Assembly: GCA_937138625.1 (NCBI GenBank) | Contig: CAKZPF010000007.1 | Location: 1-64,000, forward strand | Direction: 5' to 3' | Source of the DNA: an uncultured Caulobacteraceae bacterium | Lineage (GTDB): Bacteria; Pseudomonadota; Alphaproteobacteria; Caulobacterales; Caulobacteraceae | Length of the DNA: 64,000 nt | Part shown: positions 26,568 to 48,629 of the stretch, piece after piece | How positions within the stretch are numbered: the first letter of the stretch is position 1 | Layout: the number at the start of each line of letters is the position of its first letter | Made by a program: the position numbers and the translations under genes | The notes under the pieces: model-generated | Databases searched by the model: none | Seen by the model: the letters and a program-made list of their open reading frames with translations, nothing else | Told to the model about the DNA's origin: nothing

Positions 26568-26576
26568 GATCGGTCC

Positions 26577-27032
26577 TTATTGTGATTGTGCCGCCAGCGA
26601 CGGAAATTCAAAGCTGGCCACCAAACGCTTGTGCCACCATGGGCTTAGCCAACTTTCCACAGCCGCCCGCCCCCAATAGGCATGGGTCACTTTCCACTGA
26701 TGGCGACGGCGCCCCGTGACCAGGCCCAAATGCTTCACCCGCGCCCCCGGCGTCATGCGAAAGGCCAAAACCCGCCCCAATTCAATTTCTTGTCCCCGAC
26801 TGACAAAGTGCCGCCGCAAGCCACACAACAGAGGCTCGGCAGGGGTGGTCTCGTCCCATCGGGGGCTGTAGCGCGGCACCACCCAGGGCTCGTCGCCTTC
26901 GATGCTGCGCCACACGCCCCGCACAAGGCCCAAACAATCACAGCCCACACCTTTGATGCTGGCCTGATGCACATAGGGCGTGCCCACCCAGGCCAAGGCC
27001 TCGGCAGCAATGCGTTCGCGATCCACAGTCAT
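26577..27032 (-). CDS. GTA gp14, NlpC/P60-family tail peptidase
   Basis: A 151-aa cysteine peptidase of NlpC/P60 type. The catalytic Cys lies in GVGCDCLGLVRGVW and the His in VKHLGLVTG; the fold is the usual short phage version. In GTA and phage tails it locally opens peptidoglycan during DNA delivery. The ATG overlaps the gp13 stop (ATGA), so translation is coupled. Confidence 0.94.
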   Translation of the reverse strand: MTVDRERIAAEALAWVGTPYVHQASIKGVGCDCLGLVRGVWRSIEGDEPWVVPRYSPRWDETTPAEPLLCGLRRHFVSRGQEIELGRVLAFRMTPGARVKHLGLVTGRRRHQWKVTHAYWGRAAVESWLSPWWHKRLVASFEFPSLAAQSQ

Positions 27033-27922
27033 CAGGCGCTCTGCGAGCCCCCGTCATTGTGCTCGCCCGCCCGCGGGGCTGACAGGATAAAATCATCGCC
27101 GGGCATATGGGGAAACCCACGGAAATTCTGAATGTTGTTGAATTTGTCCCTACAGGTTTTCAGGCACTTGTCGCAGCCCGCTATGATTTCAAAGCCATCG
27201 CCCAGCTGGACGCTTTCATCCGGCTCGGAGTGCACATGCACCTCGTGGACGCCATCGCGTACCCGATGCACACTGACGACGTGGTCTTGACCAACATTAT
27301 CACCCGTGCCCCAGGTTAACGTGCCCCGGTCAAACCAGCCTGCGGCAAAGGCCGCCAAACCGCTGACCACAAAATGCCGAGGGCCCAGTATGGCCGTCAC
27401 CGTACCCGAAGCCGACAGCGCTTCATCCGCCAAGTCCACGCCACAACGCCCATCACCCAATGTGGCATCACAGTCCCGCCCATAAACGCGCCCCATGGGT
27501 TTGGCCAAAGCCGCCATGGGCCCCTCGAGCTCGGCAACAAAGCGACCGTCATCCTCGTTTAGCTTAGCAAGGGTTTGGGTGTGCAGATGCACGCGATCGG
27601 CAGGCGCTTGCCAATCCACCACCCATTCTTGAACTTCGGCCCCCAAATACAAACCGTTGCGCAAATCCTCAGCACTCAAGCCCTCGTCCTGCACCGCCCC
27701 CTGCACAGCCCCCAGCCCTGCGGCCAAACCCAATTCGCTCTCCAGTTCACCGGCTTGCAACCCTGTGTTGGCCTTGCAGGTGACCCCCTCGATGGTCAGG
27801 TCCTGATCGTGATCCGTAAAGCCCATGACCACACCATCACGGCGGGTGATCAGCCAGCACCGACACAGGCTGGTCGCACCACTTTCAAGTTTGGCCTTTA
27901 AGCCACTGGGTATCTGGCGCAT
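27032..27922 (-). CDS. GTA gp13, DUF2163/BR0599-family baseplate protein
   Basis: A 296-aa protein of the phage BR0599 (DUF2163) family. The cysteine-bearing C-terminal signature is clear: GRDCDATLGDGRCGVDL, then CDKCLKTC and NFRGFPHMPGDDFI. In the RcGTA particle this protein is part of the distal tail hub and carries an iron-sulfur cluster, which the conserved cysteines fit. The chosen ATG (27922, MRQIPSGLKAKLE) removes an implausible 37-residue extension that runs into gp12. Confidence 0.93.
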   Translation of the reverse strand: MRQIPSGLKAKLESGATSLCRCWLITRRDGVVMGFTDHDQDLTIEGVTCKANTGLQAGELESELGLAAGLGAVQGAVQDEGLSAEDLRNGLYLGAEVQEWVVDWQAPADRVHLHTQTLAKLNEDDGRFVAELEGPMAALAKPMGRVYGRDCDATLGDGRCGVDLADEALSASGTVTAILGPRHFVVSGLAAFAAGWFDRGTLTWGTGDNVGQDHVVSVHRVRDGVHEVHVHSEPDESVQLGDGFEIIAGCDKCLKTCRDKFNNIQNFRGFPHMPGDDFILSAPRAGEHNDGGSQSA

Positions 27923-27923
27923 C

Positions 27924-28553
27924 TCAACCTCGGATTTCTTGAAGGGGAATGGAGACAAACCGGCCACTCGAAAACGCCTCGATAGCCGCATCCAAATGGG
28001 GCGTGTCAAAGCGCACGGGCGTGTCAAAGCCAAACCCCGCCGTCACCGCCAGCCCCGCCCCCGGCGCGGCATCAAAGGTGATGACACCCGTCGTGGTGTC
28101 GACAGCATAATCCGCCGCATCGGCCGTCACGCCATCAACCGCCACCTGCACCGTGCCCGCCACGGGCTTGGTGATGGCGCGCGCCACACTGCCCGCTCCA
28201 TCACCATAGGTCTTTTGCAGCTGAAAAGTCGTAGTGCTGCCGTCACCAGTGCCCAAACTTTGGTCTGTGGCCGCTACCGTGCCCGACGGCATACAGCTTT
28301 GGTGATCCGCAGGGTCGCGAAAGCGAAAACCGTGCATTTGCCCCGATCGCGCCTCGAAGAACGCGATAACCGTGTGCAAATCGTCCAAAGTCTTCAACCC
28401 CACCCCAACATTATACCGCCGCAAGCCCTGCGCCAGGCGCACATTGCGCACTTCATAGCCAGACGACAGCCGCACAATTTCGGTCTCGCGCACGGGCCCA
28501 CCCGACGACCCAAAGCCAATGGCCACCGGAAAGCGAATATCATGAAACGCCAT
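27924..28553 (-). CDS. GTA gp12, distal tail protein (DUF2460/TIGR02217 family)
   Basis: A 209-aa protein starting MAFHDIRFPVAIGFGSSGGP, a typical GTA gp12 N-terminus, and ending with GRFVSIPLQEIRG. It forms the distal tail adaptor linking tube and baseplate. The start at 28553 lies inside the 3' end of gp11 (16-bp overlap). A GTG 5 codons upstream is possible but unneeded. Confidence 0.93.
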   Translation of the reverse strand: MAFHDIRFPVAIGFGSSGGPVRETEIVRLSSGYEVRNVRLAQGLRRYNVGVGLKTLDDLHTVIAFFEARSGQMHGFRFRDPADHQSCMPSGTVAATDQSLGTGDGSTTTFQLQKTYGDGAGSVARAITKPVAGTVQVAVDGVTADAADYAVDTTTGVITFDAAPGAGLAVTAGFGFDTPVRFDTPHLDAAIEAFSSGRFVSIPLQEIRG

Positions 28554-28567
28554 CTCCACGCCCCCCA

Positions 28568-29122
28568 CTACAGACTGCGTTGCCCCAGGCGCGTGGCCCG
28601 GGCCAAACTGGCAGCGATTTGTTGCTCGGACCGCACAAGCCCTTGAGCATCCGTGCCCGGCGGCAGGTGCAAATTCACCACAATCGGCCCCGCCGATGGG
28701 GTCTGGGCTTGAACCTCACCCGTGCCATGGGGCACGAACAGCTCCGGCCCGCGTTCCCCCACCAAATAGGCTCCACCCGCCGTCACCGGGCCACCACCCG
28801 CACGCGCGCCTGAAAAAATCGGCAGATTGCCCAGACCTTGCTCAAACACCTTGGTCAAAGGCCCGCTGACATAGCGCTCGATGGCCACCTGCGACAGGCT
28901 GCGCACCACAGACGCCGCCATATCTCGGAAACTCAGCTCCCCGTCCTTGGCCGCTCGTGCCAGGGTGCTGGAAATGCTTTTGCCCGTACGCTCAAAGGCG
29001 CGCTGCAACGACTCCGCCGCCTCCCGCCCCGGGCCTTCGGCCAATTGGCGCAGCGCCTCAGCATCGCTCTGAAGATCAAGCCCTAACCCTCGATTTTCAC
29101 CATCATAATTCGACTCTGTCAT
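28568..29122 (-). CDS. GTA gp11, short tail tape-measure protein
   Basis: A 184-aa protein. It has a helical N-terminal half with SLQRAFERTGKSISSTLARAA and a central hydrophobic/amphipathic stretch. The GTA tape-measure C-terminal part includes GGPVTAGGAYLVGERGPELF, a signature shared with many phage tape-measure tails. It is shorter than the RcGTA protein as I remember it (about 220 aa). The ATG shares one base with the TGA of the upstream chaperone gene (TGATG). Confidence 0.92.
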   Translation of the reverse strand: MTESNYDGENRGLGLDLQSDAEALRQLAEGPGREAAESLQRAFERTGKSISSTLARAAKDGELSFRDMAASVVRSLSQVAIERYVSGPLTKVFEQGLGNLPIFSGARAGGGPVTAGGAYLVGERGPELFVPHGTGEVQAQTPSAGPIVVNLHLPPGTDAQGLVRSEQQIAASLARATRLGQRSL

Positions 29123-29316
29123 CACGTCTCATCCGGAAATTTTTGCATTAAACCCTCAAGATCACCGCGCGTCAGCACCGGACTCACCTCTGACCCAACC
29201 AGGGCTTGCCACTCGCGCACACTCAGGGCCCAAAAGGCCTGCGGCGACAGCCCCAAGCGCCAACAGGCCAGCCGCAAAGCGGCACGCCACTGCTCGCCAT
29301 CCTGGTGTTGGCTCAA
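29122..29316 (-). CDS. GTA gp10.1-type tail assembly chaperone (small)
   Basis: A 64-aa protein, WRAALRLACWRLGLSPQAFWALSVREWQAL, matching the small phage tail assembly chaperone family found between gp10 and gp11 in GTA clusters. The start is a TTG overlapping the gp10 stop (TTGA). The TTG is supported by the family's conserved N-terminus and the tight coupling. It is easily missed by gene finders. Confidence 0.85.
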   Translation of the reverse strand: MSQHQDGEQWRAALRLACWRLGLSPQAFWALSVREWQALVGSEVSPVLTRGDLEGLMQKFPDET

Positions 29317-29606
29317 GACGCGGCCTCAAACGCAGCCACAAGTGCTGCCGCCGCCTCTTTCAAGGTCATATTGGGCAGGGTCCCCTCAGGTGCCCGGCCG
29401 CCCCCACGCAACACGGCCCCGACCATGGCCTGGACCTCTTGCGCCGATAGGGTTTGGAAGCGAGCTCCCAAGGCCTCAGTGCCCGAAACACCCAGCAAAC
29501 CTTCGATCTCGGCCAAGGCCCCCAGGGTCAGGCAAACCACATGGACCTCATTGCCCAACCGTACGGCCACTTCGCCACGGGCTGTGTTCACAGCTTGCGG
29601 TCCCAT
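29313..29606 (-). CDS. GTA gp10, tail tube/tape-measure chaperone
   Basis: A 97-aa protein of the GTA gp10 family (NTARGEVAVRLGNEVHVVCLTLGALAEIE). It belongs with phage tail assembly chaperones that act with gp10.1 in tail length control. The ATG overlaps the gp9 stop. It is normal in length. Confidence 0.9.
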   Translation of the reverse strand: MGPQAVNTARGEVAVRLGNEVHVVCLTLGALAEIEGLLGVSGTEALGARFQTLSAQEVQAMVGAVLRGGGRAPEGTLPNMTLKEAAAALVAAFEAAS

Positions 29607-30013
29607 CAGTCGGCCACGAAGCTCAGTTGCCCTGCCGCAACCAAGGTCATGGCAAAGGTGGCCTCGCCATCAAAATCCCCAGCATAATCCAGATTGCTGA
29701 CCTGAAAGGGGCCCGTGATCACACCAAAATCCGGAAGGGTCAGGGAAAAATTTGGTGCCGTGCCCTCGAAAAAGGCCGTGCGCACCAAGGCATCTGACGC
29801 CGCATCCCGAAAGATCCCCGCCCCCGTCACCGTGGCTGACTTCACGCCCGCCCCCGCCAACAGCTCGCGCCAAGCCCCGCTCGAGTCTGAATCTGTCGCG
29901 TCCACCGTTTTGGCATTCAACGAAATCGTTCGTGCCCGCAGCCCGGCCACACTGACATAGCCGCTGCCATCATATATTTTCACCAGGACATCCCGTCCCT
30001 TTTGCGCACTCAT
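29606..30013 (-). CDS. GTA gp9, major tail tube protein
   Basis: A 135-aa protein beginning MSAQKGRDVLVKIYDGSGY. It has the usual tail-tube pattern TISLNAKTVDATDSDSSGAWREL and AGIFRDAASDALVRTAFFEG. It polymerises into the tail tube. The ATG at 30013 was chosen over upstream in-frame codons because it gives the family's start and ends the overlap with gp8. Confidence 0.94.
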   Translation of the reverse strand: MSAQKGRDVLVKIYDGSGYVSVAGLRARTISLNAKTVDATDSDSSGAWRELLAGAGVKSATVTGAGIFRDAASDALVRTAFFEGTAPNFSLTLPDFGVITGPFQVSNLDYAGDFDGEATFAMTLVAAGQLSFVAD

Positions 30014-30015
30014 CT

Positions 30016-30435
30016 TCAGGCCTCGCTTTCTTGTTCCGTGACAATTCTGATCCGCATCACACCCTGCTGCGAGCGGCCATCCCGCCCGCGAAAACAATCG
30101 CGATACCGCACCTGCTGGTTGATCACCGTGGCACCGCTAACCAGCAAACTGCTGGTTTCAATAACTGCCGCCATAGCGGCCTGGGCGGCGCGCACCTCGG
30201 CAGCGCCTTGGTACTTCGACAGCAACCTCAAGGTAAAAATGTGCTCTTCCAGGCCGCCGCCATCGGCAGGCACGGGGCGACTTTCCGCCGCTTCCACCAC
30301 CACCAGGGGCGTGATCACTTCACGCGGCGGCACATCATAAATGCGCGCGGGATCCCCCAAGGCCGCCTTGACGTCGGCATCTGATCGCAAAACCGCCACC
30401 AAGGCCGCCTGCACGTCATAGACAACACCGCTCAT
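30016..30435 (-). CDS. GTA gp8, tail terminator (DUF3168 family)
   Basis: A 139-aa DUF3168 protein (MSGVVYDVQAALVAVLRSDADVKAALGDPARIYDVPP...). It is the tail terminator or head-tail joining protein in GTA particles. ATG 30435 overlaps the last bases of gp7. The longer frame upstream lies within gp7 and has no support. Confidence 0.93.
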   Translation of the reverse strand: MSGVVYDVQAALVAVLRSDADVKAALGDPARIYDVPPREVITPLVVVEAAESRPVPADGGGLEEHIFTLRLLSKYQGAAEVRAAQAAMAAVIETSSLLVSGATVINQQVRYRDCFRGRDGRSQQGVMRIRIVTEQESEA

Positions 30436-30749
30436 TGGGCCGCTCCCTGACATGACAAGCGCAGATAGCGATTGCTGAGGTCCACAGGCGTGACCGCTTG
30501 GATATATAGATCCTGCCCCGCCAGACGCACCCGCCACCCCGGGGCCACATCGGCACGATGACGAATGGTGATCTCATATTGCGTTTGGCTGAGGTCGCGG
30601 CCCGTGTTCGTGATCGTCTGCGGTGCCGTGGGCTCAACCGCGGCCCACACAAAACCCATACTGGTCAGGCTCAGACTGCGGCCGCCGGCGGCGTCTTCAA
30701 CCTCGACCGGAGCCATCAGCTGCACACGATGCTTCAACTGGCCAATCAT
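30432..30749 (-). CDS. GTA gp7, head-tail stopper/adaptor
   Basis: A 105-aa protein of the phage head-tail joining (SPP1 gp16/HK97 gp7-like) family. It begins MIGQLKHRVQLMAPV and contains FVWAAVEPTAP and ITIRHRADVAPGWRV. The ATG overlaps the gp6 stop (ATGA). Confidence 0.93.
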   Translation of the reverse strand: MIGQLKHRVQLMAPVEVEDAAGGRSLSLTSMGFVWAAVEPTAPQTITNTGRDLSQTQYEITIRHRADVAPGWRVRLAGQDLYIQAVTPVDLSNRYLRLSCQGAAQ

Positions 30750-31312
30750 AGCCGCACCTGCCGAAAGGGCGCGATCAGCATCTCGACATCGACATCCAGA
30801 CCTGGTGCCTTTTCGTCCCCGCGATGCTCATAGGCCGCTGCCAACAGACGCAACAACGCCTGACGCAAAGGCGCGGGCACATCCTCCGGCTCCACCCCGA
30901 ACCCAGCGGTGTAATCGAGCTCAATGCCACCTTTCAGGCGTTGCGGAGCAGGCAAACCCGAGCCCGAGACCGCAAACACCGCCCCATTCAGCCCCGTCAG
31001 CACCAGATACGCATCAGATCCAACAATCGTTTCGGCATTGGATGTGTCTTTGTACCGCAAAGCACTGACTGCGCCCAAAGGCTGCAGACTGGGGCTCAAC
31101 ATGCGCGGATCGCGCCCCAAACCATCAAAACGCTCGCGCACCTGGCGATGAATCAAAGCCAGCCCCAAACGCGCCTCCAAATGCTGGCGCACCTGCACGA
31201 TCATCTCGGTGATCAGACTGTCGTCATCGCTGTGGTCCACCCGCAGATGGGCCTTGGCCTCGGACAGGCTCAGGGGCTCTGTCGCCGGCGGGCTCAGTTC
31301 CGTCATGCTCAT
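30746..31312 (-). CDS. GTA gp6, head-tail connector (adaptor)
   Basis: A 188-aa protein of the phage gp6-like/YqbG connector family, with LSLSEAKAHLRVDHSDDDSLITEMIVQVRQHLEARLG and C-terminal ALLRLLAAAYEHRGDE. I chose the ATG at 31312, which has AAGG about 8 nt upstream; the ATG at 31306 is also possible. A longer frame would read through the terminator hairpin between gp5 and gp6. Confidence 0.93.
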   Translation of the reverse strand: MSMTELSPPATEPLSLSEAKAHLRVDHSDDDSLITEMIVQVRQHLEARLGLALIHRQVRERFDGLGRDPRMLSPSLQPLGAVSALRYKDTSNAETIVGSDAYLVLTGLNGAVFAVSGSGLPAPQRLKGGIELDYTAGFGVEPEDVPAPLRQALLRLLAAAYEHRGDEKAPGLDVDVEMLIAPFRQVRL

Positions 31313-31339
31313 GATCTTGCCTTTTGGATAATGGAAAAA

Positions 31340-31370
31340 GGGCTCCCCCAGCCCCATACCAGGGGAGCCC
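31340..31370 (-). terminator. Intrinsic terminator inside the GTA cluster, between gp5 and gp6
   Basis: On the minus strand GGGCTCCCC (31370-31362) and GGGGAGCCC (31348-31340) form a perfect 9-bp GC-rich stem with a 13-nt loop. TTTTT (31339-31335) follows at once. It lies 14 bp after the capsid stop and before the gp6 ribosome binding site. This is the canonical form of an intrinsic terminator. It would cut expression of the adaptor and tail genes unless transcription is anti-terminated. Confidence 0.85.
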
Positions 31371-31384
31371 ACACACGCCCCCGC

Positions 31385-32623
31385 TTAGGACGCTGCGAAC
31401 TTCAACAGCTTGATGGCGTCAAAGTTCTGCACACCCCCGCCCACACGCTTGGTGGTGTAGAACAGCACATAGGGCTTGGCCGCATAGGGATCGCGCAAGA
31501 TGCGAATGCCCGCACGATCAACAATCAGATAGCCCTGCTGGAAATCACCAAAGGCGATCGAGAAGCTATCGCTGTCGATATCCGGCATCTCCTCGATCTC
31601 GGTCACGGGATAGCCCAACAAGGTGGACGGCGACCCCGCATTCAAACCCGGCTGCCAGATGTAATTGTCATTGGCATCTTTGAACTTCCGCACCACCGAA
31701 GCCGTGCGCCGGTTCATCACAAAGCGCGCATTGGGTCGGAACTGGGCCTTGGGCGCAAAGATCAAATCAATCAAGGCATCCGCCGGATCACTGCTGGCAA
31801 AGGCCCCATCAGCGCCCGTGGCGATATAGCCAATTTTATCCCAAGCGTGCGAGGCCTCGGCCACCGTTGTGTAGCTCAGAAAGCCCTTTGGCTTGTTGGT
31901 GCCATTCCCGGAAACGAAGGCCGCCGTTTCTTGTGCCGCAAAGGTCTGGCGCAGCTCATCGGCCAGCCATTCATCAATGTTGACAAAGGCGTCATCAATA
32001 ATGGTCGGCGTCGCCGCCGGCATGGCGTAAAGCTCAGCGGTTGGAAACTCGATCATGCTCAGGGTCGGGCTGTCGGTGGTGGTGCGGCTATCGGTTTCCG
32101 CCACCCAACCATAGGTCATGCCCCCCAGGCTCACCGGTTTTTTGTAAGTGGTGGTGCCCACCTGGCGCACACTGGCAATCTCACGCATGGGCGAAATTTC
32201 TTTCAGGCGCATGTCGATCAAACGTTCAGTTTCAGAAGGCACCACATACCCACCATCCGGATCAGACCCCGCCGACAGGGCCTTTTGCTCGAAATGCCCC
32301 AGGCCGCTGATATCGCCCTTGCGCAAATACTGGTCCCATGCGGCTTTGTGCTCGCTGGGCATATCCGCCCAAGCGGACTTGCCCTCCAATTGGGGGCGGC
32401 TGTTGTCGCGATGCATGCGGTCCAGGCGGGATTTGGTCTCGGTGACGGCACTGTCGATACGTGAAAGTTTTTCTTCCAACAGCGGATCGACACGACCCGT
32501 GTTCTCGAGGTTGCGCAGACGGGCTTCATTTTCCGCCTTAAAGGCCTCGAAAGCCGCCATCATTTCATGCATAGCGGCACGCTGCCCCGCAGAGGCGGCA
32601 GCGGTTTTCTTTTCCATACTCAT
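31385..32623 (-). CDS. GTA gp5, major capsid protein (HK97 fold)
   Basis: A 412-aa HK97-type capsid protein. Residues 1-110 are a charged coiled-coil delta/scaffold domain (MMAAFEAFKAENEARLRNLE) removed by the gp4 protease. The mature part has the family's DGGYVVPSETERLID and ISPMREIASVRQVGTT, and ends DAIKLLKFAAS. A strong AGGGAGA site precedes the ATG at 32623. It is followed directly by an intrinsic terminator, so it is probably the most abundant cluster transcript. Confidence 0.96.
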   Translation of the reverse strand: MSMEKKTAAASAGQRAAMHEMMAAFEAFKAENEARLRNLENTGRVDPLLEEKLSRIDSAVTETKSRLDRMHRDNSRPQLEGKSAWADMPSEHKAAWDQYLRKGDISGLGHFEQKALSAGSDPDGGYVVPSETERLIDMRLKEISPMREIASVRQVGTTTYKKPVSLGGMTYGWVAETDSRTTTDSPTLSMIEFPTAELYAMPAATPTIIDDAFVNIDEWLADELRQTFAAQETAAFVSGNGTNKPKGFLSYTTVAEASHAWDKIGYIATGADGAFASSDPADALIDLIFAPKAQFRPNARFVMNRRTASVVRKFKDANDNYIWQPGLNAGSPSTLLGYPVTEIEEMPDIDSDSFSIAFGDFQQGYLIVDRAGIRILRDPYAAKPYVLFYTTKRVGGGVQNFDAIKLLKFAAS

Positions 32624-32637
32624 TGTTCAGGATCTCC

Positions 32638-33123
32638 CTAGTTTTGATGCGCCCACTGCGCGGTCTGTGCGGCCAGCTGATCGCTTGCCACCTCGCCACC
32701 GAACCGCGACACGCGGGCCTGCGGCAGCATGGGAAAGGTCACCAACGACACCTCCCACAACTCCAATTTCGTCAAATACCGAAGCCGCCGGGTGTCATCC
32801 TGGCGACTGCCGTGCACCCGATAGCCAATGGACAACCCATCCAAGGCCCCCGCCTGCACCAAGCGCGCGGCCAACCGCCCACGGCTCGTGTCCGTAAAGA
32901 CCCGCCCCACGACATAAAGGCCGTGATGATCTTCATAGATATCGGTCCAGACGCCAATGGGCTCGTCAGGCTCGTGCTGGTACAGCATTTTCACGCCCCC
33001 AGCGCCCACCAGCGCCACACTGTCGCGAAAGGCCCCGGCCACCACGACGTCATCATTCAAATCCCTCAGCCCAAATACCGAGGCATAGCCCTCGACCACC
33101 AGGCCAGACCGCAACTCATCCAT
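32638..33123 (-). CDS. GTA gp4, prohead maturation protease
   Basis: A 161-aa HK97-type (U35) prohead protease. It has GYASVFGLRDLNDDVVVAGAF, the histidine block LYQHEPDEPIGVW, and the serine block DGLSIGYRV. It cleaves the gp5 scaffold domain. It is 14 bp upstream of the capsid gene. Confidence 0.95.
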   Translation of the reverse strand: MDELRSGLVVEGYASVFGLRDLNDDVVVAGAFRDSVALVGAGGVKMLYQHEPDEPIGVWTDIYEDHHGLYVVGRVFTDTSRGRLAARLVQAGALDGLSIGYRVHGSRQDDTRRLRYLTKLELWEVSLVTFPMLPQARVSRFGGEVASDQLAAQTAQWAHQN

Positions 33124-33151
33124 AGATTTTGTCTCTTGTGATTATCAGGCC

Positions 33152-33406
33152 TCAGCGGGCCTCTAGCTTTCGTTCAATCCGCGCCAAGCTTTCGCGCGCT
33201 TGGCGGGCTTGTTCCTCAAGACGCGCCAGGCGCTCGGCTACCAAATGCTGGGACGCCACTTGCGCCTCCAGACCCTCCAGCCGCGCCCCGGCTCGGCCCG
33301 CCCAAATCAAGGCGCTGGCGGTCTGAATGGCCATGGCAAACAACAGCGCCAAAGACACCTGCCGACTGATACGCCAGGTGATCTGTGGGGATTGGGTCAA
33401 CATCAT
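33152..33406 (-). CDS. GTA gp3.5-type small membrane protein
   Basis: An 84-aa protein with one N-terminal transmembrane segment (VSLALLFAMAIQTASALIWA) and a C-terminal coiled coil (LEGLEAQVASQHLVAERLARLEEQARQ, partial). A small gene occupies this place between portal and protease in other GTA clusters; its role is unknown. The ATG at 33406 overlaps the portal stop, and a second ATG lies at 33403. Confidence 0.8.
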   Translation of the reverse strand: MMLTQSPQITWRISRQVSLALLFAMAIQTASALIWAGRAGARLEGLEAQVASQHLVAERLARLEEQARQARESLARIERKLEAR

Positions 33407-34587
33407 GACGCCCCGTCACCCGCGTCCAAACCGGCCATCCGGCGACGTTCCTCGTCGCTCAGAAAAGTTGCTGCCGCCAAGCGCGCCCACAGGGCCTCGC
33501 GTTCTGCTGACAACGCCGTGACCTCATCCAGATCACAATGCACACTCAGGCCCGAAAACCGCGTGCCCAACCAAGCCGTCAGCATGCGCGCGGTTTTCTC
33601 GGCCAAGGGCACAGCCGTTTGCCGCCAAAAGGCCACCTGAGCCTCGCGGAAATTGGCATAGGTGTTGTCGCCCGGAATGCCCAACAGCATGGGCGGCACG
33701 CCAAAGGCCAAGGCGATCTCACGCGCCGCGGAATTCTTGGCCTGCATAAAATCCATGTCGGATGGGCTCATGGACATGGGTTTCCAATCCAACCCCCCAT
33801 CCAGCAACACCGGCCGGCCCGCGTTCTGGGGTCCCGTGTGCGCGTCCTGAAGCTCGGACTTCAAGCGATCAAATTGCTCGGCGGTCAGGTGCTCAGCCCC
33901 CTCACGCCCACTGTAGACCAAAGCCCCTGATGGCCGCGCCGCATTATCAAGCAAGGCCTTGTTCCACGCGCCGGATGCATTGTGGATATCAATGGCAAAG
34001 GCTGCGGCCTCAAGGGGGGAAAAACCATAATGATCATGGGCGGGGTGAAACAGCTTCAGGTGCAACACCGGCAAAAACCCATCCCCATCCCGGGTCAATT
34101 TGATGGACCGCCCCCCGACACTGTACTCATAGCCCTGCGGCCAACCTTGCGCCCCGGGAATGACCTTCATCCGGTCGGGCCGCAACACATAAAGCTCGCC
34201 GTGCCCATCCCCCAAATCCGAATATTCCAAATAGGCATTGCCCGCCGTTTGCAAAAACCCATACGCGGCCTCGAAATAATCGCGGCCGCCTTGCTCGGGG
34301 TTGGGGCGGGCCAACAGCTGGGCCACCGGGTGCTGATCGTCCCGGCGTTTGTTGATGCGCACCTCCAGCGGAATGCTGGCGGCGGCCTCCGCGACCATGC
34401 GAATACACCGATAGGCAATGGCATTTTTCGCAAACCCCTCGCGCGCCAAAGCCTCGTAGTCCCGCGGCGTCCACACGGGCCGCCCCACACTGTGCACCGA
34501 GACCAGAGCCTGGCTTTGGCTTTTCTGCTCGGCCAGTCCACGCCCGCCCGGCTTCACCCGATTGATGACCGTCTGCCAAAAGGCCAT
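33403..34587 (-). CDS. GTA gp3, portal protein (HK97 type)
   Basis: A 394-aa phage portal protein with TPRDYEALAREGFAKNAIAYRCIRM (opening, in two parts), LARPNPEQGGRDYFEAAYGF, FSPLEAAAFAIDIHN, and GVPPMLLGIPGDNTYANFREA, all typical of the family. The ATG at 34587 was chosen because GGGGAGGGCGAC directly precedes it. The frame upstream of it overlaps the gp2 end without such a site. It forms the DNA channel at the head vertex. Confidence 0.95.
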   Translation of the reverse strand: MAFWQTVINRVKPGGRGLAEQKSQSQALVSVHSVGRPVWTPRDYEALAREGFAKNAIAYRCIRMVAEAAASIPLEVRINKRRDDQHPVAQLLARPNPEQGGRDYFEAAYGFLQTAGNAYLEYSDLGDGHGELYVLRPDRMKVIPGAQGWPQGYEYSVGGRSIKLTRDGDGFLPVLHLKLFHPAHDHYGFSPLEAAAFAIDIHNASGAWNKALLDNAARPSGALVYSGREGAEHLTAEQFDRLKSELQDAHTGPQNAGRPVLLDGGLDWKPMSMSPSDMDFMQAKNSAAREIALAFGVPPMLLGIPGDNTYANFREAQVAFWRQTAVPLAEKTARMLTAWLGTRFSGLSVHCDLDEVTALSAEREALWARLAAATFLSDEERRRMAGLDAGDGAS

Positions 34588-34615
34588 GTCGCCCTCCCCT
34601 TCATTTTCATCATCT

Positions 34616-35923
34616 CTACAAAACGCGCAGGCGCGGTTGTCCGCCACCGGCCAGCATCAAATGGCTGACCGCCCACACCAAGGCATCCACCCGATCCGGG
34701 CTCTGGGCACCTTGGCCAAAATCCAGCATCTCTTGCTCCAGGTGCGGGAATTGTCCCGTATGCTTGACGCGCCCTTGCTCGTACAAAGCGGCCACCGGCT
34801 CGGCACGTGCCCGCTTGCTCAGGCGGGCATGCACCAAGGTCACGGGCACCTCTGCCCCCTCCAGCTGCAACAAGGTCCGCACCATCTCGCCGCCTTGGTT
34901 CCCCTCAGCCACAATCTCTGCCTGCCACCGCCGCGCACACGCCACGGCCGCCCGCGCCCAGGCCTGGGGCGTTTGCCCCTGCACGGTTGCATCTTCCAAC
35001 ACATAGGCCCGATCGCCACAGCGCCCCACGGCCACCAAACCACAGGCATCGGCGTCTCGGCCCACACTGGCGGGCGGGTCCACCGCCACCACACGGCGAT
35101 CAAACCGTTCGGGCGGTGCGGTGTGCACCCCATGCAGATGCGTCACGGTCCAGACCCCCGCGTCATGATCCTCAACCACCAGGCCCTCAAGCTCTTGCTG
35201 GGCCAAGCGGGTGCCGCCATACATCGCCTGCAAAGTTGTCATAAATTCAGGGGCCAAATTGTGGGCATTGGCCGCCGTGGGGGCATGCGTCATGACCACA
35301 TCTGGCCGCGCCATTAACCGCTTCACCGCTGCCGTTGCCTTGGGCGTTGTCGTCACCACCCCCCGTGGGGCTGCGCCCAATCGCAAGGCAAATTCCAACA
35401 TGTTCAGCGTCTCATCCGCCAAACGCCAGGCCGCAAACTCATCACACCACGACAAATCAAACTGTGGGCCGCGCAGGCTTTCGGGGTCTTCTGCCGAGAA
35501 GGCAAAGGCCTCCGCCCCGTTGGGCCAAACCAACCGCCGCCGAGAAGGCTCGTACCGGGGCCGCCAGCCTGGCATGGCCGTGGCCAGCAATCCCGATGGT
35601 CCCTCAATCATCACTTCACGGGCATCGTTCAGTGTGGGGGCCACCAAAGCCACATGCCCGGCCCGTTCGGCTTCCACCTCGGCGCGCACCCATTCAGCCC
35701 CGGCGCGGGTCTTGCCTGCCCCTCGCCCCCCCATAAACAGCCAATGCCGCCAAGGGCCCTCAGGGGCTATCTGATCCAGGCGGGCCCAAAAGGCCCAATT
35801 CGTCATCAGAACCGTCACCTGCTCCGGGCTCAGACTCTGCAGAAGCGCTCTTTGCTGAGATTTCGGCACGCAGGCGAGCCAAGCGGCGCTCCAGCTCGGC
35901 TCGCAAGCGGGCATGTTCCGCAC
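34616..35923 (-). CDS. GTA gp2, terminase large subunit
   Basis: A 435-aa packaging motor. The ATPase domain has the Walker A motif MGGRGAGKTRAGAEW, an LVAPTLNDAREVMIEG segment, and a Walker B-type FDLSWCDEFAAW. The nuclease domain begins VVAVDPPAS with acidic residues in GRDADACGL. The start is set by a GGAGG (35937-35933) 9 nt before a GTG at 35923; ATG 35914 is a weaker alternative. Either start lies well inside gp1 (about 160 bp overlap). In GTAs this enzyme packages host DNA in head-fulls. Confidence 0.94.
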   Translation of the reverse strand: MRNMPACEPSWSAAWLACVPKSQQRALLQSLSPEQVTVLMTNWAFWARLDQIAPEGPWRHWLFMGGRGAGKTRAGAEWVRAEVEAERAGHVALVAPTLNDAREVMIEGPSGLLATAMPGWRPRYEPSRRRLVWPNGAEAFAFSAEDPESLRGPQFDLSWCDEFAAWRLADETLNMLEFALRLGAAPRGVVTTTPKATAAVKRLMARPDVVMTHAPTAANAHNLAPEFMTTLQAMYGGTRLAQQELEGLVVEDHDAGVWTVTHLHGVHTAPPERFDRRVVAVDPPASVGRDADACGLVAVGRCGDRAYVLEDATVQGQTPQAWARAAVACARRWQAEIVAEGNQGGEMVRTLLQLEGAEVPVTLVHARLSKRARAEPVAALYEQGRVKHTGQFPHLEQEMLDFGQGAQSPDRVDALVWAVSHLMLAGGGQPRLRVL

Positions 35924-36161
35924 GGGCGTCTTCCTCCATATCTTGCTCCTTTTGCTGTGATCGGATCCAGTCTTCAAGCGCCACCACGGCCTTGCTTAAA
36001 CTGACCAAGGCCCGCGCATGCGCCGCGATATCACTGGGATCATCCCCTGGGTCTTGTGCGGCCAGCTTGTTCAGGCGGGCTTGTGTCGGCTTCAGCCAAG
36101 ACATCCCCTCATCGCCCCCGGATTTGGCCGGGCCGCTTTCCGTTTCCCTTTTTTCGGACAT
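35760..36161 (-). CDS. GTA gp1, small terminase-like protein
   Basis: A 133-aa protein at the head of the cluster. It has an N-terminal polar segment, helical KPTQARLNKLAAQDPGDDPSD and LVSLSKAVVALEDWIRSQQ, a long charged coiled coil (MEEDARAEHARLRAELERRL), and a disordered acidic tail. This matches GTA gp1, shown in RcGTA to be the small terminase. The large terminase starts inside its 3' third. It is the first gene of the cluster; an AT-rich, probably promoter-bearing gap lies upstream. Confidence 0.85.
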   Translation of the reverse strand: MSEKRETESGPAKSGGDEGMSWLKPTQARLNKLAAQDPGDDPSDIAAHARALVSLSKAVVALEDWIRSQQKEQDMEEDARAEHARLRAELERRLARLRAEISAKSASAESEPGAGDGSDDELGLLGPPGSDSP

Positions 36162-36269
36162 GCCCCATCATAGGGTCGCGCCATCCCCACAGGATTTCTT
36201 TTTGGCTTTTTCTCTTAATCTATTGATTTAAATAATATAATCAGACCAAATCACGAGCATAAAGCCCCG
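36162..36269. promoter_or_regulatory. AT-rich upstream region of the GTA cluster
   Basis: About 108 bp between the convergent-facing 3' end of the YcgN-type gene (minus strand, upstream) and gp1. The stretch 36196-36245 is strikingly AT-rich (TTTAAATAATATAAT) in a GC-rich neighbourhood. It is the only plausible promoter region for the GTA operon. I see no convincing -35/-10 pair, consistent with a promoter needing an activator, but this is not proof. Confidence 0.45.
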
Positions 36270-36752
36270 CTAATCCCCGCCACGCTCGACATCAAACCAA
36301 GGCGCCAGACAATTCAGCAGGTCATCCTCGTGGACATCCGCTTCGCTGACCACCAGACCCTGCACCGACACCCCCGCCGTATGCACGGTGTTGGGGTCCC
36401 CTGAAACCAGGGGATGCCACCAGGCCAAGTCTCGTCCTTCCGCCAATCGGCGATAGGCACACGATTTCGGTAACCAGCCATATTGGGTCACGGTCTCGGG
36501 CGTCAGTTGGATACAATCCGGCACCTGGGCCTTGCGGTTGGCATAATCTGTACAGCGGCACGTCTGGGTATCCAACAGCTTACAGACCATCGCGGTCGCC
36601 ATCACCTCGCCCGTGTCTTCATCCTCGGCCTTGACCAGACAGCACAACCCACAGCCATCGCACAAGGCCTCCCACTCGGCTTGGTGCAAATCCGACAAGG
36701 CGAACCGCTGCCAAAACCGGTCTCGCAAATGGGTTTTCTTCTCAGTGGCCAT
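36270..36752 (-). CDS. YcgN/YkgJ-family cysteine-cluster protein (UPF0260)
   Basis: A 160-aa protein of the UPF0260/YcgN family with the conserved cysteines: CDGCGLCCLVK, CKLLDTQTCRCTDYANR, VPDCIQLTP, and WLPKSCAYRRLAEGRDLAWWHPL. The cluster of eight or more cysteines suggests zinc or iron binding. The function is not established. It ends 108 bp upstream of GTA gp1 on the same strand and is divergent from the penicillin-binding protein gene. Confidence 0.93.
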   Translation of the reverse strand: MATEKKTHLRDRFWQRFALSDLHQAEWEALCDGCGLCCLVKAEDEDTGEVMATAMVCKLLDTQTCRCTDYANRKAQVPDCIQLTPETVTQYGWLPKSCAYRRLAEGRDLAWWHPLVSGDPNTVHTAGVSVQGLVVSEADVHEDDLLNCLAPWFDVERGGD

Positions 36753-44632: not shown

Positions 44633-45046
44633 ATGACGACCGCACTGAATGATCTCAAAGACGAATTTGACTTCCTGGACAGCTGGGAGGAGCGCTATGC
44701 GCACATCATCGCCATGGGCAAAAGCCTGCCCCCCCTGCCCGAGACTTACCAAACCGAAGCCTATCGCGTGAAAGGCTGCATGAGCCAAGTCTGGCTGGTG
44801 GTCAAACCCGGAGCAGACAACCGCCCCGCCATCCAGGCCGATAGTGATGCCTTTATTGTGCGGGGGCTGATTGCGATCGCGCTGCGCCTGGTGGACAATC
44901 TTTCGGCCCAAGAAATAGCGGCCTATGATTTTCAATCGGCTTTTCAGGCGCTTGATCTGACCCAACACCTCAGCAGTCAGCGCAACAACGGCTTGGTTGC
45001 TCTGACTGAACGCTTGAAAGCCGAGGCCCAGGCGCTAGCGGCCTAG
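44633..45046 (+). CDS. sufE: SufE-family cysteine desulfurase partner
   Basis: A 137-aa SufE protein, with EFDFLDSWEERYAHIIAMGK, LPPLPETYQTEAYRVKGCMS (the active-site Cys in the VKGC motif), and DSDAFIVRGLIAIALRLVDN. It accepts sulfur from SufS and stimulates it for Fe-S cluster assembly. Length is normal. It overlaps the 3' end of the minus-strand DUF6456 gene by 12 bp (convergent). The other suf genes are not in this window. Confidence 0.95.
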   Translation: MTTALNDLKDEFDFLDSWEERYAHIIAMGKSLPPLPETYQTEAYRVKGCMSQVWLVVKPGADNRPAIQADSDAFIVRGLIAIALRLVDNLSAQEIAAYDFQSAFQALDLTQHLSSQRNNGLVALTERLKAEAQALAA

Positions 45047-45793
45047 GCGGTCTCCACGGCCCTTTGCCGCATATCCATAATGACCAGCCAGCCGGTTCAG
45101 CGCCGCTTTCAAAATCGCGCGCAACCCTTTGCGAGATTGGTCCAATTTGCGCTCGGCGGCGGACAAAGCCGTTTGCTGCACGCAGATATCCATAACGGCC
45201 GCGCTCTCGACCTTAGTCAACAGCTGCAAGGCCGCCATCACCCGTTGCCGCGCCGCCAAACGATGATCGGTTTGGTCCTGCAGACCATGGCCCGAGGAAC
45301 CACCCACCCGCAACCAATTCACCGCCCCTTGGCCCATGAAACCCGCTTGGTGACAATCGGCCCGCAAGGTCTCGGCCGCCTGATGCTCAGCCGCGGTAAG
45401 CGCCCAGCCATCCTTGTCACGGCGCAGGCTCAGCCAATCCACTGCACTTTGCAGCCGCCGATCGGGCAAGGGGTGGGCCTGTCCGTCTTCCGCCATTTGC
45501 CACGGGGACCGACCAGCCGTCTGGACGGCTTCGCATACAGATGTGCGGGATGAAGGCTGCCACGCTTTCCCCGCCGCGCTCAGGCGCCATACCGGCCCCT
45601 CGGCCCGCACCAAACCCAACAGCTGCAGGCGATTGAATACGGGCGCAGCACAGCGCGCCATCACCCGGCGCCGCTGGTCCCTTTGATCGCGCACCTCACC
45701 TCCACCCCGCGGGCTTTTTATCAAGCAGGCTCCCGGCCGCCGCAGCGCCCGCACCACCCGCCAAAGGGCTTTGTCATCAACGCCGGACATCAT
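45035..45793 (-). CDS. gafZ: DUF6456 protein, predicted GafZ (GTA transcription anti-terminator)
   Basis: A 252-aa protein. The N-terminal half contains a winged-helix-like region (ARCAAPVFNRLQLLGLVRAE). The C-terminal DUF6456 domain is clear: ETLRADCHQAGFMGQGAVNW, DHRLAARQRVMAALQLL, VMDICVQQTALSAAERKLDQ and LKAALNRLAGHYG. In Rhodobacter the corresponding region is the C-terminal part of GafA; in Caulobacter it is the separate protein GafZ. GafZ lets RNA polymerase pass terminators in the GTA cluster (literature from memory). It is translationally coupled to the upstream DnaA-like gene (TGATG). The naming depends on this context plus the domain, not on a search. Confidence 0.75.
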   Translation of the reverse strand: MMSGVDDKALWRVVRALRRPGACLIKSPRGGGEVRDQRDQRRRVMARCAAPVFNRLQLLGLVRAEGPVWRLSAAGKAWQPSSRTSVCEAVQTAGRSPWQMAEDGQAHPLPDRRLQSAVDWLSLRRDKDGWALTAAEHQAAETLRADCHQAGFMGQGAVNWLRVGGSSGHGLQDQTDHRLAARQRVMAALQLLTKVESAAVMDICVQQTALSAAERKLDQSRKGLRAILKAALNRLAGHYGYAAKGRGDRLGR

Positions 45794-46137
45794 CACTGCA
45801 CCTGGCTGGTTTCGCTGAAAATCGGCGCGCCGCGCAAAAAGCCTTCAAGAATTTCTAGCTGATGATCAAAGCCATAATCATCACGCATATCCTCGATCAG
45901 GTGACAGGCATGGGAAATGGTGGTTCGGTCGCGGCCGAAAGCATCGGCAACCCGTGACAGGCTGAGCTCATAGGCCACATGAGTCAGATACATGGCCACC
46001 TGGCGCGCAAAGGCCGCCGAGGCCGTGCGCCGTGTTGCCGCCTGGATATCTTGCAAGGATGTGCCGAACCTCAGGGCCACCACATGCTGTACAAAACCAG
46101 CTTTTTCAAGATCGCGTGATGAAGCTGCCATACCCAT
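45793..46137 (-). CDS. gafY: DnaA-domain-IV-like DNA-binding protein, predicted GafY (GTA activator)
   Basis: A 114-aa protein. Residues about 45-95 match the C-terminal DNA-binding domain of DnaA: RQVAMYLTHVAYELSLSRVA, then AFGRDRTTISHACHLIEDMR with the helix-turn-helix DRTTISHA. No ATPase domain is present. In Caulobacter GafY is such a small protein, encoded just before gafZ, and it activates GTA promoters with IHF. In Rhodobacter the two are fused as GafA. A strong AAGGGGAG site precedes ATG 46137. An unrelated DnaA-like regulator remains possible, but the gafZ pairing argues for GafY. Confidence 0.75.
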   Translation of the reverse strand: MGMAASSRDLEKAGFVQHVVALRFGTSLQDIQAATRRTASAAFARQVAMYLTHVAYELSLSRVADAFGRDRTTISHACHLIEDMRDDYGFDHQLEILEGFLRGAPIFSETSQVQ

Positions 46138-46197
46138 TTTGTCTCCCCTTCCGTAAATTTTTTTGTTGCAATGTACGGTATATGTAAATTAAGAGGT

Positions 46198-46216
46198 TTG
46201 TCCAGAGGGTGGATAA
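46198..46216. promoter_or_regulatory. Inverted repeat between gafY and the divergent XRE regulator
   Basis: TTGTCCA-N5-TGGATAA is a 7-bp inverted repeat with one mismatch. It lies in the 127-bp shared promoter region of the predicted gafYZ operon and the XRE-type gene. Size and symmetry suit an operator for a dimeric XRE repressor. Nearby AT-rich sequence (46157-46192) is where divergent promoters would fit. Confidence 0.4.
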
Positions 46217-46264
46217 CCACAAAGGAGAACAATAGGCACAAAATCCTCGTGCCCTTACAGGACC

Positions 46265-46846
46265 ATGGAAAATTTGATACGACACTATCGACAAAATCGG
46301 GGGATGACCCAGACACAGCTGGCAGAACAACTGGGCACAACCACCCAATCTGTCTCCAGACTCGAGACCGGCAACATGCGTTTGTCCATCGATTGGCTGG
46401 AGCGCATAGGCACGGCCCTGGGCGTGCACGCCACAGCTTTGTTGCCGGCTCCGCAGGATCAGACCACGCCGCTGATGTTTGCGCAGCATGATGGCACGCT
46501 CGGCAACCAAAGCCCCGGTCAATTCATGTGGCCCCAGCTGGATACACGACACCTGGCCATCAGAATGGTGCAGGCATGTGGTCCATTTCTGGCGGGGGAA
46601 ACACTGGTCTGTCAGGCGCTGAACGCCGAACAATTGCCAAATGCCTTGGGGCAAATTGTGCTGGTCACCAGCCCAGACTGGCCCAGCCCACGTTTGGGGC
46701 GACTGTTGCACGTGAACACAGACCCGACATCCACAGAACAGGCGCGCGGAGACCTGCAAATCTTCTCTGGCCCCAATGCCATTCTCAGATCAGTGGAGAT
46801 ACATCAACTTCATCTGATCACGCACAGTGTGCGCGCCCTGGCCTGA
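46265..46846 (+). CDS. XRE-family regulator, candidate RogA-like repressor of gafYZ
   Basis: A 193-aa protein with an N-terminal XRE helix-turn-helix (residues 1-55: RGMTQTQLAEQLGTTTQSVS, then LETGNMRLSIDWLERIG). The C-terminal domain resembles a sensor or peptidase-like LexA/CI fold (QFMWPQLDTRHLAIRMVQAC; GQIVLVTSPDWPSPRLG), but I see no Ser-Lys self-cleavage dyad with confidence. It is divergent from gafYZ with a shared promoter region holding an inverted repeat. In Caulobacter the repressor RogA controls gafYZ; whether this is its orthologue needs a search. Confidence 0.7.
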   Translation: MENLIRHYRQNRGMTQTQLAEQLGTTTQSVSRLETGNMRLSIDWLERIGTALGVHATALLPAPQDQTTPLMFAQHDGTLGNQSPGQFMWPQLDTRHLAIRMVQACGPFLAGETLVCQALNAEQLPNALGQIVLVTSPDWPSPRLGRLLHVNTDPTSTEQARGDLQIFSGPNAILRSVEIHQLHLITHSVRALA

Positions 46847-46880: not shown

Positions 46881-47414
46881 TTAGGCGGCTTTTTGGCCTG
46901 CCGCCACAACGGCATCAAAGGCCAAAATCATGTTGACCCGTTTGCCATCAGACGCCAAAGGCAAACGCAACCACAGCTGCACCAAGTGATCTTTGCCTTT
47001 CCAATCCAGCGGGGCCGCGCCAGCCGCCGGTTTGGCCTGCTCGCGCACTTCAGATAATTGCTGCCGCCAATATTGGGCCTGGGCTTCAGGATAGACTTCG
47101 GACAGCGTTTTGCCGGTGATCTCACCTTCGTAAATGTCCCGAAGGCCCGTGCCCGCCAAACGCATCTTATAGTGTGCATCTGGATTAGCTGCCGTATGGG
47201 CCACGTCTTCTTGTGGACTGTCACTGGTCTGATCCGCCTCGTCGATCTCGATCAGACTGATGGTGGGCAGGTGTTTGATAAAATCCCGTGGGTGAATGTC
47301 TTGGCGTCCAGGCAGCTGGCCATCTTTGCACTTGCTCATCCAATACTGGACCAGCTCTCGATGTGCCGCCATGGCCTCGTCACCAGAATACACGCGATTT
47401 GCCCCCGCAAACAT
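46881..47414 (-). CDS. PAS-domain protein (alphaproteobacterial PAS_5 type)
   Basis: A 177-aa protein with the PAS_5 pattern: LVQYWMSKCKDGQLPGRQDI, FIKHLPTISLIEI, YKMRLAGTGLRDIYEGEITGK and TLSEVYPEAQAQYW, ending in a beta-rich half (KDHLVQLWLRLPLASDG). There is no effector domain, so it is probably a free-standing sensory or adaptor protein. ATG 47414 has a weak ribosome binding site. ATG 47372 (MAAHRELVQYW), preceded by GAGG, may be the real start. Confidence 0.8.
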   Translation of the reverse strand: MFAGANRVYSGDEAMAAHRELVQYWMSKCKDGQLPGRQDIHPRDFIKHLPTISLIEIDEADQTSDSPQEDVAHTAANPDAHYKMRLAGTGLRDIYEGEITGKTLSEVYPEAQAQYWRQQLSEVREQAKPAAGAAPLDWKGKDHLVQLWLRLPLASDGKRVNMILAFDAVVAAGQKAA

Positions 47415-47615: not shown

Positions 47616-48128
47616 TCAACGCCCTGAAGAGGCTTTAGCCCGATTCCGTCCCAGGCGTCGATCGGGGCCTTTGTATTCGGTTTCACGGCGACGACGGTCC
47701 GGGCCAAAGAACTCGTCGCTGGCAACAAATGAGCGTGGACGCAACAATATCGCCCCCACCTTGTCTTTGATCATTTGACCGGTCAGGGGCTTGCCCAGAA
47801 CCTCGTGGGCACCGGCATCACGGGCCGCCTGCAACAATGACGGCGTCACCGCTGAACTGGTGACCACGATGGGCGTATAGCGATTGATGTCAAAATCACC
47901 CTTGCGCACACGCGTGACCAACTGATTGGCATTGCCTTGATCCGTGTTCCAAGTGGTGAACAGCACATCCCAGGGCATCAGCATCAAACTGGCCATGGCG
48001 TCTTTTTCTGTACGCACCATATGCGCATGCTTAACGCCAACAAAATGCAACAGGTCCTTTGTGGCCTGCCCCATCATCACACTGGGATCCTGAATTAAAA
48101 CGCGTACCCGAGCAAAATCGACTGGCAT
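47616..48128 (-). CDS. Receiver-like protein lacking the phospho-acceptor aspartate
   Basis: A 170-aa protein with a CheY-like fold: VRVLIQDPSVMMGQATKDLL, IVVTSSAVTPSLLQAARDAG and AHEVLGKPL, with the conserved Lys kept. At the place of the phospho-acceptor the sequence reads DVLFTTWN, without Asp. The C-terminus carries two GPDRRR-type motifs seen in a group of alphaproteobacterial receiver proteins. It is probably a phosphorylation-independent or pseudo-receiver. No DNA-binding domain is seen. Confidence 0.8.
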   Translation of the reverse strand: MPVDFARVRVLIQDPSVMMGQATKDLLHFVGVKHAHMVRTEKDAMASLMLMPWDVLFTTWNTDQGNANQLVTRVRKGDFDINRYTPIVVTSSAVTPSLLQAARDAGAHEVLGKPLTGQMIKDKVGAILLRPRSFVASDEFFGPDRRRRETEYKGPDRRLGRNRAKASSGR

Positions 48129-48227: not shown

Positions 48228-48629
48228 TTAATTGGAAGCTTTTCCGCGACCCAACCCCATTTTTTTGGCCAGCTGCGAACGGGCCTTGGCGTAATTGGGG
48301 GCAACCATCGGATAATCGGCCGGCAGACCCCATTTTTCACGGTATTCTTGAGGGGTCATATCGTATTTGGAAGTCAGATGGCGCTTCAAAGATTTGAACT
48401 GCAAACCATCTTCCAGGCAGATGATATAATCCGGGGTCACCGATTTTTTCACCGGCACGGCGGGTTCTAATTTTTCTTGTTCCTTGCCGCCATTGGCTGC
48501 CACACCATTCAAGGCCACATATACCTGCTCGATGACACCTGGCAGAGCCGTCGAATCCACTGCATTGTTACCAACATACGCTGAAACAATGTCAGCCGTC
48601 ATTTCAATGATCTCAAGTTTTGCACTCAT
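48228..48629 (-). CDS. mucR: MucR/Ros-family transcriptional regulator
   Basis: A 133-aa regulator. An N-terminal oligomerisation region (EMTADIVSAYVGNNAVDSTA, LPGVIEQVYVAL) precedes the prokaryotic zinc-finger domain. Here the finger reads YIICLEDGLQFKSLKRHLTS, followed by YDMTPQEYREKWGLPADYPM and ARSQLAKKMGLGR. The first finger position has one Cys (IICLED) but not the usual second Cys, which is common in MucR proteins that bind zinc weakly or not at all. MucR proteins are nucleoid-associated gene silencers of AT-rich promoters that control surface and cell-cycle genes. They usually repress their own gene. Confidence 0.95.
   Translation of the reverse strand: MSAKLEIIEMTADIVSAYVGNNAVDSTALPGVIEQVYVALNGVAANGGKEQEKLEPAVPVKKSVTPDYIICLEDGLQFKSLKRHLTSKYDMTPQEYREKWGLPADYPMVAPNYAKARSQLAKKMGLGRGKASN

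Follow-up and report, generated by a model that had tools for sequence, protein, structure and literature searches.

A divergent XRE-family gene as the probable dedicated repressor of gafYZ near the GTA cluster of an uncultured Caulobacteraceae bacterium

Which protein keeps the GTA activator genes gafY and gafZ silent in a genome where an XRE-type gene lies divergent from them? The question is raised by the window studied here, that is, the whole 64,000-nucleotide stretch of contig CAKZPF010000007.1 from an uncultured Caulobacteraceae bacterium. RogA is the dominant known GTA repressor, and tests of it in the literature surveyed have so far been made in Caulobacter only. A second repressor family would bear on what turns GTAs on in nature. 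We take the locus as the likely control module of the RcGTA-type GTA of this host, with a cis-linked gene that likely encodes a dedicated gafYZ repressor whose family is separate from that of RogA. GafY, GafZ and RogA themselves are already known, but the gafYZ-divergent XRE family is undescribed in the open-licence literature searched.

All three open reading frames of the initial annotation are present at their coordinates and strands. The first, gafY (45793-46137, minus strand), encodes a DnaA-domain-IV-like activator of 114 aa. Its product matches the DnaA C-terminal helix-turn-helix domain (Pfam Bac_DnaA_C, PF08299, E=4e-17) and a GafY HMM (E=1.9e-49), and is 50% identical over 98 aa to GafY of C. 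vibrioides DSM 9893, a genome found via the published GTA promoter pattern (PMC11150451). The second, gafZ (45035-45796, minus strand), encodes a DUF6456 protein (PF20057, E=7e-22) and putative antiterminator, with 35% identity over 130 aa to the C. vibrioides GafZ and a weak match (0.0097) to a PHROG Q-like antiterminator. It is the single DUF6456 copy in the whole 2.02 Mb genome. The gafZ start overlaps the gafY stop in a TGATG, and the two genes form one operon. The proposal of a DnaA domain IV protein adjoining a downstream DUF6456 gene, identified as GafY and GafZ, was thereby borne out.

The neighbourhood is conserved as well. Downstream, gafZ is convergent with sufE (44633-45046, plus strand; PF02657, 3.5e-39), with an overlap of 12 bp, and upstream lie genes for a PAS_5 protein (46881-47414, minus strand; PF07310, 9e-13) and a MucR/Ros regulator (48228-48629, minus strand; PF05443, 1e-51). 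The sufE/gafZ/gafY arrangement recurs in relatives and in C. vibrioides, and several relatives have the order mucR-PAS-gafY-gafZ. The family of these relatives includes the C. vibrioides genome, as G149, assigned to that family, and G060 agree in their DUF6456 coordinates; the window's genome probably belongs to it too, together with Caulobacter. This recurrence, together with the linkage of the XRE family described below, indicates that the arrangement of the locus is not due to chance. A response-regulator-like protein is encoded between mucR and the PAS gene (47616-48128, minus strand), a place where it is absent in several of the relatives checked.

The window also carries an RcGTA-type structural cluster from terminase to megatron (22677-36161, minus strand), recognized by the terminase, the HK97 capsid and portal, and the megatron (NF048004). 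From gafZ at 45035 to the 5' end of the cluster at about 36161, the distance is about 8.9 kb. The closeness of the two loci is common to relatives, since gafYZ lies immediately upstream of terL in three genomes (G050, G054, G058), and in a fourth (G042) gafYZ and the GTA cluster are spaced by several genes that also intervene in the window. The linkage of about 9 kb pointed out in the initial annotation therefore holds. In the three genomes with adjoining genes, gafYZ runs in the same direction as the GTA terL (L206, L207, L208), and two of them (L206 and L207, from G050 and G054) have one mucR-PAS-gafY-gafZ-terL array. A candidate GTA promoter lies at 36162-36290 (minus strand), with GGGGAT motifs and an exact IHF consensus (AATCAATAGATTA) at 36216-36228, one of four such consensus sites in the window. 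It resembles the mapped GTA promoter of C. crescentus (PMC11150451). A CxxCxxCC protein is encoded just upstream of the cluster (36270-36752, minus strand); such a protein is also found beside terL in G002, G038, G042 and G046, and was detected in the upstream region of G023.

The third gene (46265-46846, plus strand) encodes an XRE protein of 193 aa, divergent from gafYZ as had been annotated, with a Cro/CI helix-turn-helix (Pfam HTH_31 and HTH_3, E=2e-12 and 6e-11) and a C-terminal domain. For comparison, C. crescentus RogA (CCNA_00080) has 213 aa, with a helix-turn-helix and an S24-like domain without the key residues (PMC9632790). A 213-aa protein of C. vibrioides (L215:4218-4859), with S changed to D in the GDSM motif, matches this description and was taken as RogA by length, architecture and lost residues, not by published sequence. 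The window's genome has a counterpart of it on contig C9, with 217 aa and 45% identity over the full length. The XRE protein gave no BLASTP match to either RogA, and its best matches in C. vibrioides were confined to the helix-turn-helix (E>0.01). Compared by hhalign as a single sequence, the XRE protein retrieved nothing of RogA; only as a family profile did it match a profile of eight RogA proteins (91% probability, E=1e-6, 168 columns, in a single comparison). The same family profile did not match LexA. None of 15 family members had a Pfam match, to S24 or any other family, in the C-terminal domain, and the family has no GDSM-type motif. Taken together, these three results argue that the XRE protein is not a cleavable repressor of the LexA/CI type. 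A single-sequence fold of the protein (pLDDT 41) was too poor for use. By the profile match, the XRE family and RogA are probably distantly related and built alike, with the cleavage residues missing from both in the members compared. Thus, of the three proteins to be checked by profile and sequence, GafY and GafZ were confirmed, and the label rogA-like holds in part for the architecture of the XRE protein but not for its descent. RogA-type proteins of four other genomes (L188, L189, L190 and L191, from G046, G042, G012 and G002) differ from C. vibrioides RogA in that the S24-type GDSM motif retains its Ser, and some of them keep the Lys as well; the loss of self-cleavage residues in RogA may be lineage-specific.

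The distribution of the XRE family gives an indication of its role. A BLAST search with the C-terminal domain against 398 genomes of the window's order gave no convincing relative, and relatives have no gene between the PAS gene and gafY. A two-sequence profile of the C-terminal domain, built from the XRE protein and a Sphingomonas plasmid homologue and searched against 385 genomes of the class, detected homologues in 14 further Alphaproteobacteria genomes. In all 14 loci gafZ is immediately divergent from the XRE homologue, in eight of them together with gafY, and two (L262, L264) have the same mucR-PAS-XRE-gafY order as the window. These genomes belong partly to the same genera (10 genera, including the window's own), which leaves fewer independent cases. 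Because the query profile contained neither the helix-turn-helix nor any gaf sequence, the gaf neighbours are independent evidence. A single-protein search found no close XRE relatives on viral contigs. Among IMG/VR contigs, six good homologues were found, two of which begin at a contig edge; the other four are all divergent from gafZ. On one of these contigs (L280, IMGVR_UViG_3300001595_000004) gafZ is directly followed by terL and portal genes, and this contig, although filed as viral, is probably a GTA locus. One exception is a homologue on a Sphingomonas parapaucimobilis plasmid, which adjoins dapF.

Given that members of its family nearly always stand divergent from gafZ or gafYZ, the window's XRE protein is very likely a regulator of gafYZ, and a probable dedicated repressor of these genes. 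If true, the physical tie of a second repressor family to gafZ or gafYZ would offer both a simple marker and a switch open to testing for those GTA-bearing lineages that lack a known regulator. In eight loci (L261, L263, L265, L266, L275, L276, L278, L280) the XRE gene is divergent from a gafZ without a detected gafY, and the gap has a common TGTAGGAAAG and an AACC-N5-GGTT repeat. The latter was also tried as an XRE operator in the window, where it was no better than chance.

The 127-bp gap between gafY and the XRE gene (46138-46264) holds candidate sites for RogA and for the XRE protein. The published RogA operator in the gafYZ promoter is GGAA-N4-TTCC (PMC9632790), and a looser form, TAGGA-N6-TCCT, was found in the gafY promoters of C. 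vibrioides and relatives. Across the order, a motif resembling the RogA operator is present in 43/43 sampled promoters of loci with a detected gafY, such as L010, L178 and L236 (41 by pattern, two weaker ones by matrix), many of them from close relatives and hence not 43 independent cases. TAGGA-N6-TCCT is probably the RogA operator conserved across the order, which would extend the link between RogA and gafYZ from one species to an order. It often lies over a possible -10.

In the window, a degenerate site of this kind (ATAGGCACAAAATCCTC / ATAGGCACAAAATCCTCG; 46232-46248, plus strand) has the top PWM score among 127,966 window positions. No other site in the 2.02 Mb genome comes within 2 mismatches. 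Chance would yield about one such site genome-wide, but this one falls in the gap, at 95-111 bp upstream of gafY and 17 bp upstream of the XRE gene. One of its half-sites is altered, as in L246. Its flipped orientation was considered as a sign of an inversion and dropped, as the site is near-palindromic and is also flipped in G023 and G002.

For the XRE protein, homologous loci (L267, L270-L273) have a common TTTRCG-N5-CGYAAA inverted repeat. The best match in the window, TGTACG-GTATA-TGTAAA (TGTACGGTATATGTAAA; 46172-46188), has 2 mismatches (p=0.019) and is a tentative XRE operator, with which other short repeats in the gap compete. It lies over the -10 of a possible gafY core promoter, TGGACA-N16-TATACC (46177-46204, minus strand), read from the sequence; with a stricter consensus, the intergenic region gave no promoter hit. 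Between the two candidate operators there is a DnaA-box-like GGTGGATAACCACA (46208-46221), a possible site for GafY or DnaA, and GGGGATA is found in the same interval at five of the eight XRE-gafY loci. From these sites, control of gafYZ may be shared between the XRE protein and RogA.

Among the known systems close to that of the window is C. crescentus (PMC9632790, PMC11150451). Both have split gafY and gafZ genes that form an operon and encode a DnaA domain IV and a DUF6456 protein, each in single copy, with sufE nearby and an IHF-like site at the GTA promoter. In C. crescentus, however, a long distance separates gafYZ (CCNA_01111-01112) from the GTA cluster, and there is no linkage to rogA, whereas here the distance is about 9 kb and an XRE gene is divergent from gafYZ. 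RogA (CCNA_00080) and the XRE protein are alike in combining a helix-turn-helix with a C-terminal domain without catalytic residues, which in the XRE protein is possibly of the S24/RogA type, and in their target, the gafYZ promoter, which is a proposed one for the XRE protein. They differ in the helix-turn-helix, in the lack of a pairwise match and in the cis-linked, divergent position of the XRE gene, whose host also has a true RogA. Other Caulobacter XRE proteins, CdxA, CdxB, RtrA and RtrB, bind and repress gafYZ (PMC10688885, PMC13236601), but their genes lie apart from gafYZ and their targets are numerous; CdxB has 132 aa. In Rhodobacter capsulatus the activator domains are the same but fused in GafA, in contrast to the split genes of the window, and GafA too has a divergent neighbour, rcc01866, for which the authors could predict no function (PMC6363796, PMC9638019). 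For Hyphomicrobiales, Sherlock and Fogg note a split gafA with sufE downstream and mucR or a helix-turn-helix gene upstream (PMC9638019, Figure S2); the parts of that account dealing with this arrangement give no family or repressor analysis of the helix-turn-helix gene.

Four other explanations of the XRE gene have to be weighed against a dedicated repressor. A RogA orthologue that moved next to gafYZ, as the initial annotation saw it, would agree with the two-part architecture, with the profile similarity and with the known repression of gafYZ by RogA (PMC9632790). We rejected it as very improbable, since the true orthologue is encoded on contig C9, neither RogA is matched in BLASTP, the recognition helix is different and the XRE family is separately conserved. 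An unrelated recent insertion, from a prophage or as a selfish gene without a GTA role, was favoured at first, when the 398 genomes of the order gave no relative of the C-terminal domain and the gap between the PAS gene and gafY was found empty in relatives. It was dropped after the class-wide linkage to gafZ or gafYZ, including the two loci with the complete mucR-PAS-XRE-gafY order, and now seems barely credible.

The two remaining explanations accept a regulatory setting. Divergent adjacency would also fit an activator of gafYZ, or a stress sensor turning these genes on, and GTA activation in other species needs several positive inputs. The Cro/CI fold, joined to a C-terminal domain that resembles RogA, and the tentative site over the proposed gafY -10 region speak against such a role, which we hold to be unlikely. 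It is quite improbable, too, that RogA is the main gafYZ repressor here and that the XRE protein is mainly autoregulatory or RogA-controlled, with little effect on gafYZ. The presence of the orthologue and the position of the genome's best operator-like site, close to the XRE start, point in this direction. However, this site is degenerate and lies upstream of the proposed gafY promoter without overlapping it, in contrast to its position close to gafY in relatives, and the family-wide linkage implies a role of the XRE protein at gafZ or gafYZ.

With the XRE protein as a dedicated repressor, the module could work as follows. The XRE protein, and perhaps RogA, would keep gafYZ off. The former probably binds as a dimer to an inverted repeat that overlaps the gafY promoter, with 46172-46188 as the candidate site. 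Release of the XRE protein would occur by a route other than RecA-driven cleavage, because the self-cleavage residues of LexA/CI are lacking. RogA, too, probably takes part in this control, with gafYZ, the XRE gene or both as its targets, since it is encoded elsewhere in the genome and one weakened operator-like site lies between the XRE gene and gafY. Upon release, by analogy with the mechanism described for GafY, IHF and GafZ (PMC11150451), GafY together with IHF would activate the operon that encodes it as well as the GTA promoter, with which the IHF-like site at 36216-36228 is consistent, and GafZ would act as an antiterminator that lets the polymerase read through the GTA cluster.

On a wider scale, two repressor families of similar build might hold alphaproteobacterial GTAs off. 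RogA would act in trans, and the cis-linked, CI-like family would be the main switch in other lineages, including those with gafZ only. The window's genome, having both families and a weakened RogA site, would then show control passing between them. This picture could equally well hold or fail. An 11.5 kb contig (L019, G017:C80) carries a weak DUF6456 match and a weak XRE-family match on opposite strands, possibly a prophage form of the gafZ/XRE pair.
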